NCBI GenBank assembly: GCA_022508705.1
Contig: JAFLUO010000004.1
Location: forward strand, 1 to 32,988
Reading direction: 5' to 3'
DNA: 32,988 nt
Source of the DNA: Oscillospiraceae bacterium
GTDB lineage: Bacteria; Bacillota; Clostridia; Oscillospirales; Acutalibacteraceae
Part shown: positions 3,496 to 29,579 of the stretch, in pieces
Numbering within the stretch: position 1 is the stretch's first letter
Layout: each line of letters begins with the position of its first letter
The notes under the pieces: generated by a model
The model's input: only the letters and a program-made list of their open reading frames with translations
What the model was told of the DNA's origin: nothing
The model's database searches: none
Position numbers and translations under genes: made by a program

Positions 3496-5172
3496 ATGTA
3501 TAATTTTTACGCAGAAATCAGCAAAGAGGGCGCAATTAGCGGTCACAGCACTTTGGAGAACGAAGATTTTGTTTTTGATTTTTCTGAAAGCGACGGCAAA
3601 ATTAAAGGAACGGTTACGGCTCTTACGGACTTTACCTTCCGTTCAATTTCACTTACAACAGAGCGTGAATTCGGCTTTGATGATTTGTTTTACGCTAACG
3701 GTTATCAGTCCTGGACAACGTCAAGGGAATTTTGCCAAAGCGATTATCTTCACGGCATAATTAAGTTTAGTAAAATTTCAAAATTTACAGAGGATTTAGC
3801 GTCTGTCACAGGGGATTATAAATTTGCTTCCTATGGAGAAACAGGCGTATTCCATTCTTATACGTATTGCTATTTCAGAAAGCGTGGACAAAGGGGAATA
3901 ACTCTTTACGGCTCAAAAACCGAAAGAAAAGGATTTACGGTTTTTGAAACCGATATGAACAAAAATACGTTCAAGATTTATAAGGATATAGAGGGCGTTT
4001 CCCTTAAAGCAGGGGAAACCTATGAGGTGTTTGACATTATCGAGCTTACGGGCGATTTTGACAATGTAATGGACGATTATTTCTTCGGATTTGTAGGTTG
4101 CAAAAAGCCGAGAGAAAGGCACTTGGCAGGCTATACATCTTGGTATAACTATTTCCAAAAAATCAACGAGCAAATAATCTTGCGTGACCTTAACGGAATG
4201 GACAGAGCCCAAGAAGAGGTTAACATTTTCCAGATTGACGACGGTTATGAATCTGCTGTGGGCGATTGGCTCAGGGTAGATGCTGAAAAATTCCCCAACG
4301 GAATGAAATATATTGCAGATAAAATTCACGAAAAAGGCTATAAAGCAGGAATTTGGCTGGCGCCCTTTAATGCACAAAGAAGCTCTGCCATTTTAGCCGC
4401 CCACCCAGATTGGGTAATTCATGATAATGAAACGGGCAAACCGCTCTTAGGGTGCCCGGGCTGGGGCGGCGCTTATACCTTTGATATTTACAATGAGGAA
4501 TTCAAAGCCTATCTTAAAACTGTATTTGACACATATCTTAACGATTGGGGTTATGATATGGTCAAACTCGATTTCCTTTATTCACAGTGTATGCAGCCAC
4601 GAAACGGCAAATCAAGAGGCGAAATAATGTGCGATGCAGTCGATTTGCTTCGTGAGCTTGTGGGCGATAAGCTCATTCTCGGCTGCGGTGTTCCGCTGGG
4701 CGCATGCATAGGTATATTTGATGCCTGCCGAATAGGCTGTGACGCAAACAAGAATTTTGTAGAGCCATTTTACAATAAACTCGGTTTAAACTGTGAGCTT
4801 CCGTCATGTCAGAATGCAATAAATAACGCGATTTTCCGCAGTCATCTTGACGGCAGAGCATTCACCAGCGACCCTGACGTTTTCTTCCTTCGTAACACGA
4901 ATATTAAATTCAATTTACAGCAAAAACTGCTCCTCGGCAAAATCAATGCAGTTTGCGGAAATGTTCTTTTCGTATCTGACAATGCAGGCGATTACGATGA
5001 ACAAACAGTCGCTTATTTAAAGGATTTCTTTAAGGATAAGGATTATAAAATTAAGATGGCGGAGTATGTGAGCCGAGATGTTATCTTGCTTGAATTTTCC
5101 GAGGACGGAGTAGAAAAACAGCTTAAATTCAACATTAAAAACGGCAACAGCAATATAGGAAAAGTTTTGTAA
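3496..5172 (+). CDS. GH36-type alpha-galactosidase-like glycoside hydrolase
   Basis: 558 aa with NGYQSWT, GYTSWYNYF, FQIDDGYE, GDWLRVDAEKFPNGMKYIADKIHEKGYKAGIWLAPF and the nucleophile motif KLDFLY. SD aagggg upstream. Confidence 0.9.
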   Translation: MYNFYAEISKEGAISGHSTLENEDFVFDFSESDGKIKGTVTALTDFTFRSISLTTEREFGFDDLFYANGYQSWTTSREFCQSDYLHGIIKFSKISKFTEDLASVTGDYKFASYGETGVFHSYTYCYFRKRGQRGITLYGSKTERKGFTVFETDMNKNTFKIYKDIEGVSLKAGETYEVFDIIELTGDFDNVMDDYFFGFVGCKKPRERHLAGYTSWYNYFQKINEQIILRDLNGMDRAQEEVNIFQIDDGYESAVGDWLRVDAEKFPNGMKYIADKIHEKGYKAGIWLAPFNAQRSSAILAAHPDWVIHDNETGKPLLGCPGWGGAYTFDIYNEEFKAYLKTVFDTYLNDWGYDMVKLDFLYSQCMQPRNGKSRGEIMCDAVDLLRELVGDKLILGCGVPLGACIGIFDACRIGCDANKNFVEPFYNKLGLNCELPSCQNAINNAIFRSHLDGRAFTSDPDVFFLRNTNIKFNLQQKLLLGKINAVCGNVLFVSDNAGDYDEQTVAYLKDFFKDKDYKIKMAEYVSRDVILLEFSEDGVEKQLKFNIKNGNSNIGKVL

Positions 5173-5173
5173 A

Positions 5174-6544
5174 ATGATTAAAATTGCGGTAATCGGCGGC
5201 GGTGGAGTTCGCTCAATGTTCTTGGCAAAAAGCATAGCCAACAGAGCAAAAGATTTAAACATAACGGAGCTTGTCTTTATGGACAACGATTCCGAAAAAT
5301 TAAATATTTACGGCAAAATGGCTAAAGAAGTTGCAAAAAGGCTTGCACCCTATATGAAATTTTCTTTGACGGAAGACCCCATTGAAGCCGTAAGCGGTGC
5401 GGATTATGTAATAACCACCATTCGTGCAGGCGGCGACAAAATGCGGTGCCGTGATGAGCGAATCGCACTTGATATGGGATGTTTAGGGCAGGAAACAACG
5501 GGTGCGGCAGGTTTTTCCTTTGCCATGCGCAGTATTCCCGCGTTGGCGCAGTATTGTGAATATGTCAAAAAATACGCGAAGCCTGCTTGCAAGGTTTTCA
5601 ATTTTACCAATCCTGCCGGGGTGGTGTCGCAAACCCTTCGTGATATGGGCTATGATTTCACCTTCGGTATATGCGACGCCCCCTCGGGTATGCTTCGCTC
5701 ATTTGAGGAGTTTTTGGGTTTGCCTTTAGGCTCAACTGAGGCTTTTTGCTACGGGCTTAACCACCTTTCATTTTTTAATGAGATAATTTCTAACGGCGAA
5801 AATGTTGTTCCGAAGCTAATAGACAGTGACGGTGCTTATAAACAAACCGATTTAAGATATTTCAAAAAAGAGGATTTACTCAAAAAGCAGTTTATCCCCA
5901 ATGAATATCTGTACTATTTTTATGAGCCTGAAAAATCTGTTCAAAATATTTTGAATGCGCCAATGACCCGCGGCGAGCAGATAGAAAAAATCAACCGTGC
6001 AATGACGGCGGCGCTTAAAAATATTGATATTGAAAATGATTTTCAAAAGGCGCTGGAGATTTTTGAGCATTATTACGGCATGCGTGAAAACTCCTATATG
6101 GCAAGCGAAACGGGCGAAAAGCGTGACAAAAATTATAAATTTGACATTTACGCTCCCGATGACGGCGGTTATGCAGGCGTGGCTTTGGGAATAGTTGACG
6201 CACTTATTTCAAAAACCGAGAAAACCGTTATTGCCTGCGTGCCTAATAAAAATAAGGCGCTTGATTTTCTTTGTGAAACAGATACAGTTGAAATATCCTG
6301 TAAGATAATAGACGGGGAAGCAGTACCGCTTTCGCCAAAGATAGTTTCCGACGAAAACAAAGAGCTGATTTTAGCAGTCAAAGAATACGAAAGACTGGCG
6401 TCAAAGGCAATTCGCTTGCACGATAGACAGTCGGCAATAGAGGCACTGACGGTTCATCCGCTGGTCCACAACAGAGAAGCGGCGGAAAAGCTTACGGAAA
6501 AATACGGCGAACTCAATAAAGATTATTTCGGAGAATGGATATGA
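5174..6544 (+). CDS. GH4 family (NAD-dependent) 6-phospho-glycosidase/alpha-glycosidase-like enzyme
   Basis: 456 aa. N-terminal Rossmann motif IAVIGGGGVRS, LGQETTGAAGF, NFTNPAGVVSQ, metal-ligand type ICDAPSGM and GLNHLSFF. Starts 1 nt after the GH36 stop. Confidence 0.88.
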   Translation: MIKIAVIGGGGVRSMFLAKSIANRAKDLNITELVFMDNDSEKLNIYGKMAKEVAKRLAPYMKFSLTEDPIEAVSGADYVITTIRAGGDKMRCRDERIALDMGCLGQETTGAAGFSFAMRSIPALAQYCEYVKKYAKPACKVFNFTNPAGVVSQTLRDMGYDFTFGICDAPSGMLRSFEEFLGLPLGSTEAFCYGLNHLSFFNEIISNGENVVPKLIDSDGAYKQTDLRYFKKEDLLKKQFIPNEYLYYFYEPEKSVQNILNAPMTRGEQIEKINRAMTAALKNIDIENDFQKALEIFEHYYGMRENSYMASETGEKRDKNYKFDIYAPDDGGYAGVALGIVDALISKTEKTVIACVPNKNKALDFLCETDTVEISCKIIDGEAVPLSPKIVSDENKELILAVKEYERLASKAIRLHDRQSAIEALTVHPLVHNREAAEKLTEKYGELNKDYFGEWI

Positions 6545-16656: not shown

Positions 16657-16667
16657 GAAATAGCGTG

Positions 16668-16753
16668 AAAAATAATAAGAAAGGAACGGCACCGTGCACG
16701 GAAAGATAATTTTTATGACTTTTTGTGCGAATGCTGTGTCGCTTGCGCGATTT
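16668..16753 (+). repeat. Dispersed leader element, copy A (upstream of recG)
   Basis: aagaaaggaacggcaccgtgcacggaaagataatttttatgactttttgtgcgaatgctgtgtcgcttgcgcgattt, about 87% identical by hand count to copy B at 29480..29563 (- strand). Core 16677-16753, with similarity extending to about 16668. Contains SD + GTG mini-ORF and two hairpins. Confidence 0.85.
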
Positions 16754-18808
16754 ATGAACTTTTTGGCTGACATTGGAACAGTTAAAGGCGTGGGCAAGGT
16801 TCGTGTCGAATCTTTTCGCGCGCTGGGCGTTGCCACGGTAGGCGAATTATTGCGCTTTTATCCCCGTGCTTATGAGGATTGGAGCAATATTTTGCCCATT
16901 GAACGCTGCCCCATAGGTGAAAATGTTTGCATTAAAGGAACGCTTCTCTATCCTCTTAAAAACGAGAGAGTGCGCGGCGGAATGCTTATTGCCAAAGGGT
17001 CTGTCAGCGACGGGGACAATATTGTTTCAGTTACGTTCTTTAACAATAAGTATATTACGTCAATGTTAAAATCCGGTGAGGAATATCTTTTTTACGGAAA
17101 GATTACCCTCGGTAAATATTCGGCACGGGAAATGGTTTCGCCAATGTTTATTTCGGTGAAACAGTCGAAAGCAATTCTCCCGATTTATCCTCAAAATCAA
17201 AAAATTACTTCAAGACAAATTCGCTCGGCAGTGGAAGCGGTGCTTGCCGATAAAACCGAAATCCCCGAAATTTTACCAACATATATATTAGAAAAATATT
17301 CTCTTGTGTCCCTTGATACGGCAATTCGGCAAATTCATTTTCCCGAAAGTTCCCTTGCCCTTCAAGACGCACGGAACAGACTGATTTTTGACGAGTTATT
17401 TATATTGCAGCTAAGTCTTTTACGGCTAAAGGACGCAAACTCAATTGTTAAAACAGAAAATAAAATTAAAATTGACTACACAGAAGAATTTTTTGGACTT
17501 CTTCCCTTTAAGCCTACAAATGCTCAAATAAAAGCCGTAAACGCCGCAATTTCTGATATGAAAAGCGGAAAACAGATGAATAGACTTTTGCAGGGCGATG
17601 TTGGCAGCGGAAAAACGGCAGTAGCCGCGGCTTTGGTTTACACTTGTGCTAAAAACGGAATGCAGTCAGCACTCATGGCACCAACTGAGGTTTTGGCAGT
17701 CCAGCATTTTGAAACATTTACAAAGCTTTTTGATTTGTCGGGAATTACCTGTAAGCTTTTAACGGGCAGTACAAAACAGGCTGAAAAAAATCAGATTAAA
17801 GAGAGCCTTAAAAACGGCGAGATCGACTTAATTATCGGTACTCACGCGCTCATACAAGATGACGTTGAATTTGTAAAACTTGGTTTGGTAATTACCGACG
17901 AACAGCATCGGTTCGGAGTAAAGCAAAGAACTGGCCTTTGCTCAAAAGGCGAAAACCCACACGTTTACGTTATGTCCGCAACACCTATTCCAAGGACACT
18001 TGCCCTTATAATGTTCGGCGACCTTGATGTTTCGGTATTAGACGAACTGCCGCCGGGCAGGCAGAAAACCGTGACCTATGCAATTTCATCAAAAAAGCGC
18101 GCCGGAATGTTTGATTATATAAAATCGCATCTCGACAAAGGCTTTCAAGGGTATATCGTTTGCCCGCTTGTTGAGGAAAGCGACGCTGTTTCAGGCGTTC
18201 AGAATGTGGAAGAATATTACGAAAAAGCAAAAAATACTGTTTTTAAAGATTACAGCGTAGGGCTTTTGCACGGTAAAATGACGCCTAAGAAAAAAGACGA
18301 AATAATGGCAGATTTTAAAAACGGAAAAATTCAGTTACTCATTTCCACGGTTGTTATTGAGGTTGGCGTTGACGTTCTCAATGCCGTAATAATGGCAATT
18401 GAAAATGCAGAGCGCTTTGGGCTTTCACAGCTTCATCAGTTAAGGGGACGAGTGGGCAGAGGCACGCAGACGTCAACTTGTATTCTTGTCACCGATTCTC
18501 AAGGTGAGGATACCGTAAGGCGCATGAACATTATGTGTTCAACGACTGACGGCTTTAAAATCGCAGATGAAGATTTACGTCTTCGGGGCCCGGGTGACTT
18601 TTTCGGAACGCGCCAGCACGGGCTACCTAAGCTTCATATTGCGGATTTAATGACAGATTCAAAAATTCTTACCGAAACTCAGGAGCTTGCAAGCGAAATT
18701 ATTGCAAGCGATCCCGATTTTAAAAAGACCGAGCATATAAAAATCGGCAGGCAGGTAATAAAAAAGATAAATTCACTTCAAACACCCGCCACCGCAAACA
18801 CAATATAA
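16754..18808 (+). CDS. recG: ATP-dependent DNA helicase RecG
   Basis: MNFLADIGTVKGVGKVRVESFRALGV..., GDVGSGKTAVAAALVY, VITDEQHRFGVKQR, MSATPIPRTLAL, QLRGRVGRG. The track start at GTG 16694 is in frame but lies inside the repeat element. ATG 16754 matches the usual RecG N-terminus. Confidence 0.93.
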   Translation: MNFLADIGTVKGVGKVRVESFRALGVATVGELLRFYPRAYEDWSNILPIERCPIGENVCIKGTLLYPLKNERVRGGMLIAKGSVSDGDNIVSVTFFNNKYITSMLKSGEEYLFYGKITLGKYSAREMVSPMFISVKQSKAILPIYPQNQKITSRQIRSAVEAVLADKTEIPEILPTYILEKYSLVSLDTAIRQIHFPESSLALQDARNRLIFDELFILQLSLLRLKDANSIVKTENKIKIDYTEEFFGLLPFKPTNAQIKAVNAAISDMKSGKQMNRLLQGDVGSGKTAVAAALVYTCAKNGMQSALMAPTEVLAVQHFETFTKLFDLSGITCKLLTGSTKQAEKNQIKESLKNGEIDLIIGTHALIQDDVEFVKLGLVITDEQHRFGVKQRTGLCSKGENPHVYVMSATPIPRTLALIMFGDLDVSVLDELPPGRQKTVTYAISSKKRAGMFDYIKSHLDKGFQGYIVCPLVEESDAVSGVQNVEEYYEKAKNTVFKDYSVGLLHGKMTPKKKDEIMADFKNGKIQLLISTVVIEVGVDVLNAVIMAIENAERFGLSQLHQLRGRVGRGTQTSTCILVTDSQGEDTVRRMNIMCSTTDGFKIADEDLRLRGPGDFFGTRQHGLPKLHIADLMTDSKILTETQELASEIIASDPDFKKTEHIKIGRQVIKKINSLQTPATANTI

Positions 18809-28432: not shown

Positions 28433-29479
28433 TTAACACTCTTTATTATAAGACATATCTTCAATTAAATTTTTGAACATACTTTCAAGGTCAACCTTGG
28501 CGTCCCATCCTAAGTTTCGTAGCTTCTCCGTGCCGAGTTTAATCTTAACCGTCGGATTGTAACCCATTTTAGCGGCATTGCCGTTGTCCTCAATTACTAC
28601 TTTAATGTTCTTTTCAGGGTAAAACGAGCAAAGCATTTCTGCCATATCGTAAATTGAAATATCCGAATTTTCATTTGCAATATTATACGCCTGACCGATT
28701 TCGCCCCTTGCGGCAACCGTCATTAAAGCGGTTACAGCATCTGAAAGATAGCAATAATTTCTGACTGTTTCGCCCTTGGTGTGAAGTATTATATCTCTGC
28801 CTTCAATAACACACCGCGCAAAGTCCGCAAATACTCTGCCGTCATTGTAGGCAACGCCGGGGCCGAAGGTTTGCGTAAGACGGACAATCTTAACGGGTAC
28901 GCCGTATTCAGATGCGTAAGACACGCAAAGACATTCAACCATTCTTTTGCCCAGTGAATAGCTGCTGCGGACGTTTAACTGGTCAATATAACCGTAATCG
29001 TTTTCAGTAATAATTTTAAGATCGGGCGGTGTAACGCCGTAAACCTCAAGAGATGACATATAAACAAATGCCTTAAGATTTTTCTGCGCTCTTGCGGCGC
29101 AAAGCATATTTTCCGTTCCCTTAATGGCAATATCAATAGTCTCAACAGGCTTTTCTACCATATCCTTTGAGCTTGTAATGCTTGCCCCGTGGAAAATATA
29201 GTCAACCTCAAAATCAAAAGCAGTAACATTTACAATGTCGCTGACAACAAGAATTACTTCGTCGCCGAAAATTCTCTTTGCCTTCTGCTCATTTCTTACA
29301 AGAGCATAGATTTTAATATTTGCATTCTGCGTTTTATTCAGTTCAATAAGACTTTTAATAAAGAATGAACCGATAAGACCTGTAGCCCCTGTAATCAACA
29401 CAGAAGAATTAAAAAGCTCTTTGCAAACAGGCTCGCTTACAACTGCTTTAATATCATTCAATTCAACCGAACTTTGCAT
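28433..29479 (-). CDS. Extended-SDR NAD-dependent epimerase/dehydratase-like protein
   Basis: SVLITGATGLIGSFFIKSLIELN (GxxGxxG), YIFHGASITSS, active-site type SSYSLGKRMVECLC (YxxxK), VKIVRLTQTFGPG, YNIANENSDISIYDMAEML. Track starts at 29506. ATG 29479 sits directly after the repeat element. Confidence 0.88.
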   Translation of the reverse strand: MQSSVELNDIKAVVSEPVCKELFNSSVLITGATGLIGSFFIKSLIELNKTQNANIKIYALVRNEQKAKRIFGDEVILVVSDIVNVTAFDFEVDYIFHGASITSSKDMVEKPVETIDIAIKGTENMLCAARAQKNLKAFVYMSSLEVYGVTPPDLKIITENDYGYIDQLNVRSSYSLGKRMVECLCVSYASEYGVPVKIVRLTQTFGPGVAYNDGRVFADFARCVIEGRDIILHTKGETVRNYCYLSDAVTALMTVAARGEIGQAYNIANENSDISIYDMAEMLCSFYPEKNIKVVIEDNGNAAKMGYNPTVKIKLGTEKLRNLGWDAKVDLESMFKNLIEDMSYNKEC

Positions 29480-29537
29480 AATCGCCTTGCGATACAGCAT
29501 TCGCACAAAAAGTCATAAAAAGCAACTTTTCGTGCAC
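29463..29537 (-). other. Mini-ORF in copy B: (V/M)HEKLLFMTFCANAVSQGDYAKFG*, overlapping the SDR start
   Basis: GTG at 29537-29535 with AAAGGA upstream, TGA ending at 29463. Shares 'HxKxxFMTFCANAVS' with the in-frame leader of recG in copy A (16694 onward). Confidence 0.45.
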
Positions 29538-29563
29538 GGTATCGTTCCTTTCTTTGTATTTTT
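29480..29563 (-). repeat. Dispersed leader element, copy B (upstream of the SDR gene)
   Basis: Reverse strand reads aagaaaggaacgataccgtgcacgaaaagttgctttttatgactttttgtgcgaatgctgtatcgcaaggcgatt immediately before ATG 29479. Near-identical to copy A at 16668..16753 (+). Confidence 0.85.
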
Positions 29564-29579
29564 GCTCTACATATCCCTT

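Follow-up and report, generated by a model that had tools for sequence, protein, structure and literature searches.

A short structured repeat that adjoins the start codons of unrelated genes in an Oscillospiraceae bacterium and its relatives, a candidate mobile translation-initiation element

The question raised by this locus is why nearly the same stretch of DNA should stand directly in front of two unrelated genes on opposite strands. The window, by which we mean the whole stretch of DNA analyzed here (32,988 nt from a draft genome of an Oscillospiraceae bacterium), carries two copies of this element, which an earlier note on the sequence had placed upstream of recG (copy A, plus strand, core 16677-16753; ATG at 16754) and of an SDR gene (copy B, minus strand, core 29554-29480; ATG at 29479); both were found in these places. 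Copies A and B align over 76 columns with 87% identity (E 1e-19), which agrees with the hand count of 65 of 75 positions reported earlier, and they have in common a 23-nt core for which zero chance matches are expected within the window. The boundaries required adjustment. The previously described core is present, but the conserved element begins approximately 11 nt farther upstream, at 16666 (plus) and 29565 (minus), and while it adjoins the start codon, the model match ends 2 nt (copy A) or 1 nt (copy B) before the ATG rather than exactly at it. The matches to covariance model R1 thus span 16666-16751 on the plus strand for copy A (93.7 bits, E 7e-16) and 29481-29565 on the minus strand for copy B (102.6 bits, E 1e-17). 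The downstream genes are recG (16754-18808, plus strand), for which 37 of 40 genomes in the genus have an orthologue, and an SDR or NAD-dependent epimerase gene (28433-29479, minus strand; Pfam Epimerase, E 1.5e-38).

Searches of the genome and its relatives, of the kind that the earlier note had proposed, did return further copies. A covariance model built from 13 copies identified 27 copies at E<0.1 in this draft genome (G000; 85% complete and fragmented) and about 50 in the genome of a sister species (G033; 92% complete). Among the 60 genomes searched, 11, including G000, have a match, and most congeners have none; across 396 sampled genomes of the order, searched with strict filters, matches were confined to one family. 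The isolate Neglectibacter sp. X58 has 73 copies by the model and 45 by a 16-mer pattern, other Neglectibacter members searched have 0 to 16 (G435 and G428 in this model search being identical contigs), and head-to-tail tandem copies are present in this genus. Scaffold gaps of 100 N end beside start codons at L184, L185, L186, and L197 in G000 and at L202 in G033, and at these five gaps the sister species carries an element; the assembly probably broke at the repeat there, and the copy numbers in both drafts are thus likely underestimates. Neither a comparison with Rfam at the gathering score nor searches of viral contigs, phages, and plasmids yielded a match, consistent with the earlier remark that no known family name applies, and an origin from a phage, plasmid, or virus was rejected on the basis of these searches.

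The placement described for the two window copies was found again when the matches were tabulated against start codons. A start codon lies between -2 and +9 nt past the element, on the coding strand, in 103 of 108 matches, with a mode of +4 (57 of 108), and copies in Neglectibacter show the same geometry; upstream coding frames often stop within approximately 20 nt of the element. The lack of relationship noted for recG and the SDR gene extends across the family of copies, as the genes downstream (named by our reading of Pfam matches) form a mixed and unrelated set that includes epimerase, hisI/E, UDP-GlcNAc 2-epimerase, ABC transporters, Rrf2, RNase III, thiamine pyrophosphokinase, frr, coaX, argF, malQ, fumarase, recG, SMC, mnmA, Jag, and purD, among others. 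A promoter in the TATAGT-like 5' flank was considered and rejected, since many copies start at the stop codon of the upstream gene, so that the flank does not represent a promoter common to the copies.

Evidence that the element has entered these sites comes from relatives that lack it. At recG, the element is present in G000 and G033 and absent from five relatives with RecG proteins that are 86-87% identical; these five element-free relatives have a short SD-like sequence immediately before the ATG. Orthologous sites were compared more broadly by using 32 sites as one DNA query and then targeted stretches. Among 24 species-specific sites compared in G000 or G033, 19 have a readable, element-free orthologue, and at the other five orthologous sites a gap of 100 N stops next to the start codon. 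The window itself includes an empty site (5150-5180, plus strand, at a gene starting near 5174), the G033 orthologue of which has a copy (L133 versus L201). In the empty and filled pair L188 and L081, the empty site reads GAGGATATATAG followed directly by AAGATG, and in the filled site GAGGATATATAG is followed by TTTGAAAAATA...GGCGATAACA and then by the ATG. A model search of 60 orthologous loci, recG loci included, produced a single clear match, at the L131 gene in G062. This copy (L172, 1617-1727, minus strand) is longer and diverged and belongs to the same gene as the L131 copy of G033, and no element match was found at this gene in G000, G005, G009, or G010; we read this locus as a case of repeated insertion or loss.

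The sequence upstream of the element is consistent with the same history. SD-like 4-mers occur at -20 to -6 from the element in 59 of 129 copies, compared to 15-27 in other positional intervals, and they peak at -11 to -16, where the native SD would be expected after entry of the element at the old start codon or immediately before it. The empty sites and this fossil SD together indicate that the element inserts between SD and ATG and gives a replacement initiation region. Insertion, and its position between SD and ATG, are well supported by these sequence comparisons, and we infer that mobility caused the spread of the element; the many copies at start codons and the orthologous empty sites likewise support the earlier suggestion of a small mobile or recruited 5'-UTR cassette. 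With regard to how it might move, no terminal inverted repeats are visible, as the ends AGTGTGAAAAATAC and CATGGCGAT are, by direct reading, not mutual inverted repeats. A sign of target duplication was seen only at L130/L195, and spacers have diverged between species at the sites compared. In that pair (L130 1183-1265 versus L195), the filled site has GTGGCG at each end of the element and the empty site has a single GTGGCG; no other site hints at target duplication or at excision between short repeats. Mobilization by a Y1/RAYT transposase was rejected, as Y1_Tnp gave no match in copy-rich G033; Y1 transposases do not follow element copy number.

The element also has a conserved structure. 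In copy A, alignments A1-A4 identify a conserved, SD-like GAAAGGA as the 5' foot of a hairpin (16679-16685, plus strand); it is followed, on the same strand, by the 5' strand of helix P1 as defined by covariation (CGGCAC, 16687-16692), the upper stem and variable loop of the P1 hairpin (16694-16728), a shared strand with either the P1 5' strand or the P2 3' strand as its partner (GTGTCGC, 16736-16742), and the 3' strand of helix P2 (GCGAT, 16747-16751), which adjoins the recG start codon. The P1 5' strand, shared strand, and P2 3' strand of copy B are CGATAC (29539-29544), GTATCGC (29489-29495), and GCGAT (29481-29485), respectively, all on the minus strand. For P1 and the upper stem, 90.8% of cells are paired, changes on both sides are found in 11 of 17 pairs, and double-change cells number 27 versus 10.1 +/- 2.7 in shuffled alignments, with every slid version lower, although these covariation counts lean towards P1, to the model of which alignments A4 and A5 were fitted, and all such counts given here are inflated by the relatedness of the copies. 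Neglectibacter alone (44 matches) gave 24 double-change cells versus 7.7 +/- 2.3 for P1. P1 also agrees with most unconstrained folds of single copies, and folding energies have a mean z of -1.64 versus shuffles; RNAalifold predicted no pairs on the gappy alignment A4, and pairs were counted on a named structure instead.

In helix P2, AUCGC pairs with the terminal GCGAU and covers the GGYGAU that adjoins the ATG. Exchanges of AU to GC, GC to AU, and CG to UA were observed, double-change cells number 12 versus 2.5 +/- 1.4 in shuffled alignments, and three-way changes in L293, L308, and L063 (ACCGC/GCGGU types) alter P1 as well. The 5' strand of P2 is the 3' strand of P1, so that the two helices exclude each other and cannot both be fully formed, a riboswitch-like arrangement of covarying helices with one over the initiation region. 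P2 is a short helix, and some copies that are short or diverged lack P1 or P2 or have an imperfect form of it. P1 is the computed fold of most copies; with the 5' strand blocked in silico, the number of copies (of 129) that form P2 rises from 24 to 85, and the last 6 nt become less accessible, their unpaired probability falling from 0.58 to 0.31. The overlapping covarying hairpins, the fossil SD upstream, and the insertion point between SD and ATG are features beyond those described in the earlier note.

The reading that we favor, and consider reasonably probable from the sequence comparisons, is that the element is a non-autonomous mobile 5'-UTR cassette that acts as a bistable translation-initiation element. 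That it is, more specifically, a start-site-invading mobile element with a bistable RNA that both replaces and controls the RBS region of its target gene is put forward tentatively, at somewhat short of an even chance. According to this proposal, an element of approximately 90 nt would enter in coding orientation between SD and start codon, often within operons, and would leave the native SD stranded upstream, displaced by approximately 90 nt, while bringing a new initiation region that consists of GAAAGGA, the hairpin, and GG(C/U)GAU just before the ATG. With the native SD so far displaced, initiation should depend on the GAAAGGA of the 5' foot and the GGYGAU of the 3' foot. These two are close to the halves of one long SD, AGAAAGGAGGUGAU, which P1 would bring near each other, if the usual 16S tail is assumed; 16S was not found in the genomes searched, and the anti-SD comparison uses the usual tail. 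GGCGAU, the commonest form, is a poorer match than GGUGAU to the usual anti-SD, which here takes the place of a reading of the host's own tail. In the mRNA, the middle strand GUAUCGC would pair with either the upstream CGAUAC (P1) or the downstream GCGAU (P2). P1, the larger hairpin, would keep GGYGAU open and draw GAAAGGA nearer to it, and P2 would close GGYGAU. The computed gain of P2 and closing of the last six bases upon blocking of the 5' strand lead to the proposal that translation is ON in P1 and OFF in P2. Occupation of the GAAAGGAACGAUAC segment would then favor P2 and lower translation; candidate occupants are a protein, an RNA, a bound 30S, and a ribosome that terminates on the upstream gene. 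Switching between P1 and P2 is thus suggested by modeled folding, and control of translation by the element, including its direction, is a prediction of the same model.

A further line of evidence is conservation after insertion. Sites common to G000 and G033 number 14, plus one recognized by its upstream flank only; at the 14 sites, the element is 93% identical compared to 82% at third codon positions, and its 5' core is identical at 248 of 252 positions. That the element is better kept than third codon positions suggests selection after insertion, and gene conversion, to which the differing upper stems of the orthologous copies L041 and L142 point, could partly explain the high identity. These data bear on the alternative of a selfish, nearly inert MITE- or REP-like element, the hairpins of which serve DNA transposition and which is tolerated beside start codons because of its SD-like end. 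Such an element would account for patchy bursts (0 to 73 copies within genera), tandem copies, unrelated target genes, and mostly species-specific sites, but not readily for this conservation at common sites or for the strict coding orientation and start-codon distance of nearly all copies, and the invisibility of a terminal inverted repeat and the absence of a Y1 transposase from G033 also speak against it; we consider it unlikely, albeit with appreciable weight. A conventional cis-regulatory regulon, in which one protein, small RNA, or small molecule binds P1 and co-regulates all genes, would be consistent with the conserved unpaired foot and internal loop below a variable apical stem and with overlapping covarying helices near the start codon. 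It appears improbable given targets as mixed as recG, frr, RNase III, coaX, hisI/E, argF, SMC, mnmA, purD, and others, a set that differs between close species, unlike a stable regulon. Control of the downstream gene by a leader peptide translated from the common GTG (VHEKLLFMTFCANAVS...) is highly improbable and was rejected; many copies have GAAAGGA suitably spaced before this GTG, and the open frame runs on into recG, but numerous copies have GCG, GGG, GTA, or another triplet in place of the GTG, and the distance to the ATG does not preserve the frame, so that neither start codon nor frame is kept across copies. Finally, a segmental duplication or assembly artifact, which the earlier note had named, next to a lack of further copies, as an outcome that would undo its proposal and to which a fragmented draft with 100-N gaps at some orthologous sites might point, can be dismissed almost outright, as the flanks of the copies share no sequence, clean empty sites exist, and copies in independent assemblies, an isolate genome included, exclude an artifact.

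For the mobile 5'-UTR cassette that we favor, literature searches found no description of the element. The nearest precedent found is the SAS and ESAS repeats of Cluster K mycobacteriophages, which are dispersed, lie nearly all immediately upstream of gene starts and mostly in one orientation, and consist of a 13-bp sequence (SAS, consensus GGGATAGGAGCCC) that precedes unrelated genes and partially matches the 16S 3' end and of paired 17-bp imperfect inverted repeats (ESAS), the presence of which follows gene family across phages (PMC3203893). The element is likewise a coding-strand repeat directly 5' of the start codons of unrelated genes, but it is approximately 90 nt long and chromosomal, has demonstrable empty sites, combines a covarying hairpin with an overlapping alternative hairpin, is, by direct reading, different in sequence from GGGATAGGAGCCC, and has no phage match. 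Like the element, the MITE-like repeats BOX, RUP, and SPRITE of Streptococcus pneumoniae are short, dispersed, and hairpin-forming, and they can be transcribed (PMC3049150). They differ in that they are not fixed to start codons and in that both terminal inverted repeats and target duplications occur in BOX and RUP (PMC3049150). Conserved RNA-like folding is also found in the bacterial stem-loop repeat families, which are intergenic repeats (PMC2267715). With MITEs in general the element has in common that it is short, gene-free, dispersed in many copies, and associated with empty orthologous sites, but it lacks terminal inverted repeats, and it differs from REP and RAYT-associated repeats in that copy-rich G033 has no Y1-family transposase. 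ERIC is an example of a stem-loop repeat family; repeats such as ERIC are not known to keep a fixed distance to start codons or to supply an SD region. Translation-initiation riboswitches have overlapping exclusive helices, one of which covers the initiation region, as does the element, but the targets of the element are unrelated, its sites turn over between sister species, and it has no Rfam match. We class the element among dispersed structured repeats, as a variant of them; that a mobile RNA switch directed to start codons constitutes a new kind is possible, although we lean slightly against it. Known small dispersed repeats are only loosely near genes, whereas this element is almost always between SD and ATG. 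An element that restores the initiation region and is conserved afterwards would offer a natural means of rewiring the translation of numerous genes together, and would turn the interval between SD and start codon into a safe harbor for insertion. This hypothesis can be tested in the isolate Neglectibacter sp. X58, which has approximately 73 copies.

Two minor observations concern individual copies. Orthologous copies before the RNase III gene (L041 1501-1585 and L142 1232-1315) have the same feet and different upper stems, which suggests copy-to-copy conversion. In addition, an in-frame GTG inside the element, at 16694 (plus strand) for recG and at 29506 (minus strand) for the SDR gene, lengthens the open frame in both cases, and automated gene calls of recG and the SDR gene may include spurious N-terminal residues from this GTG.
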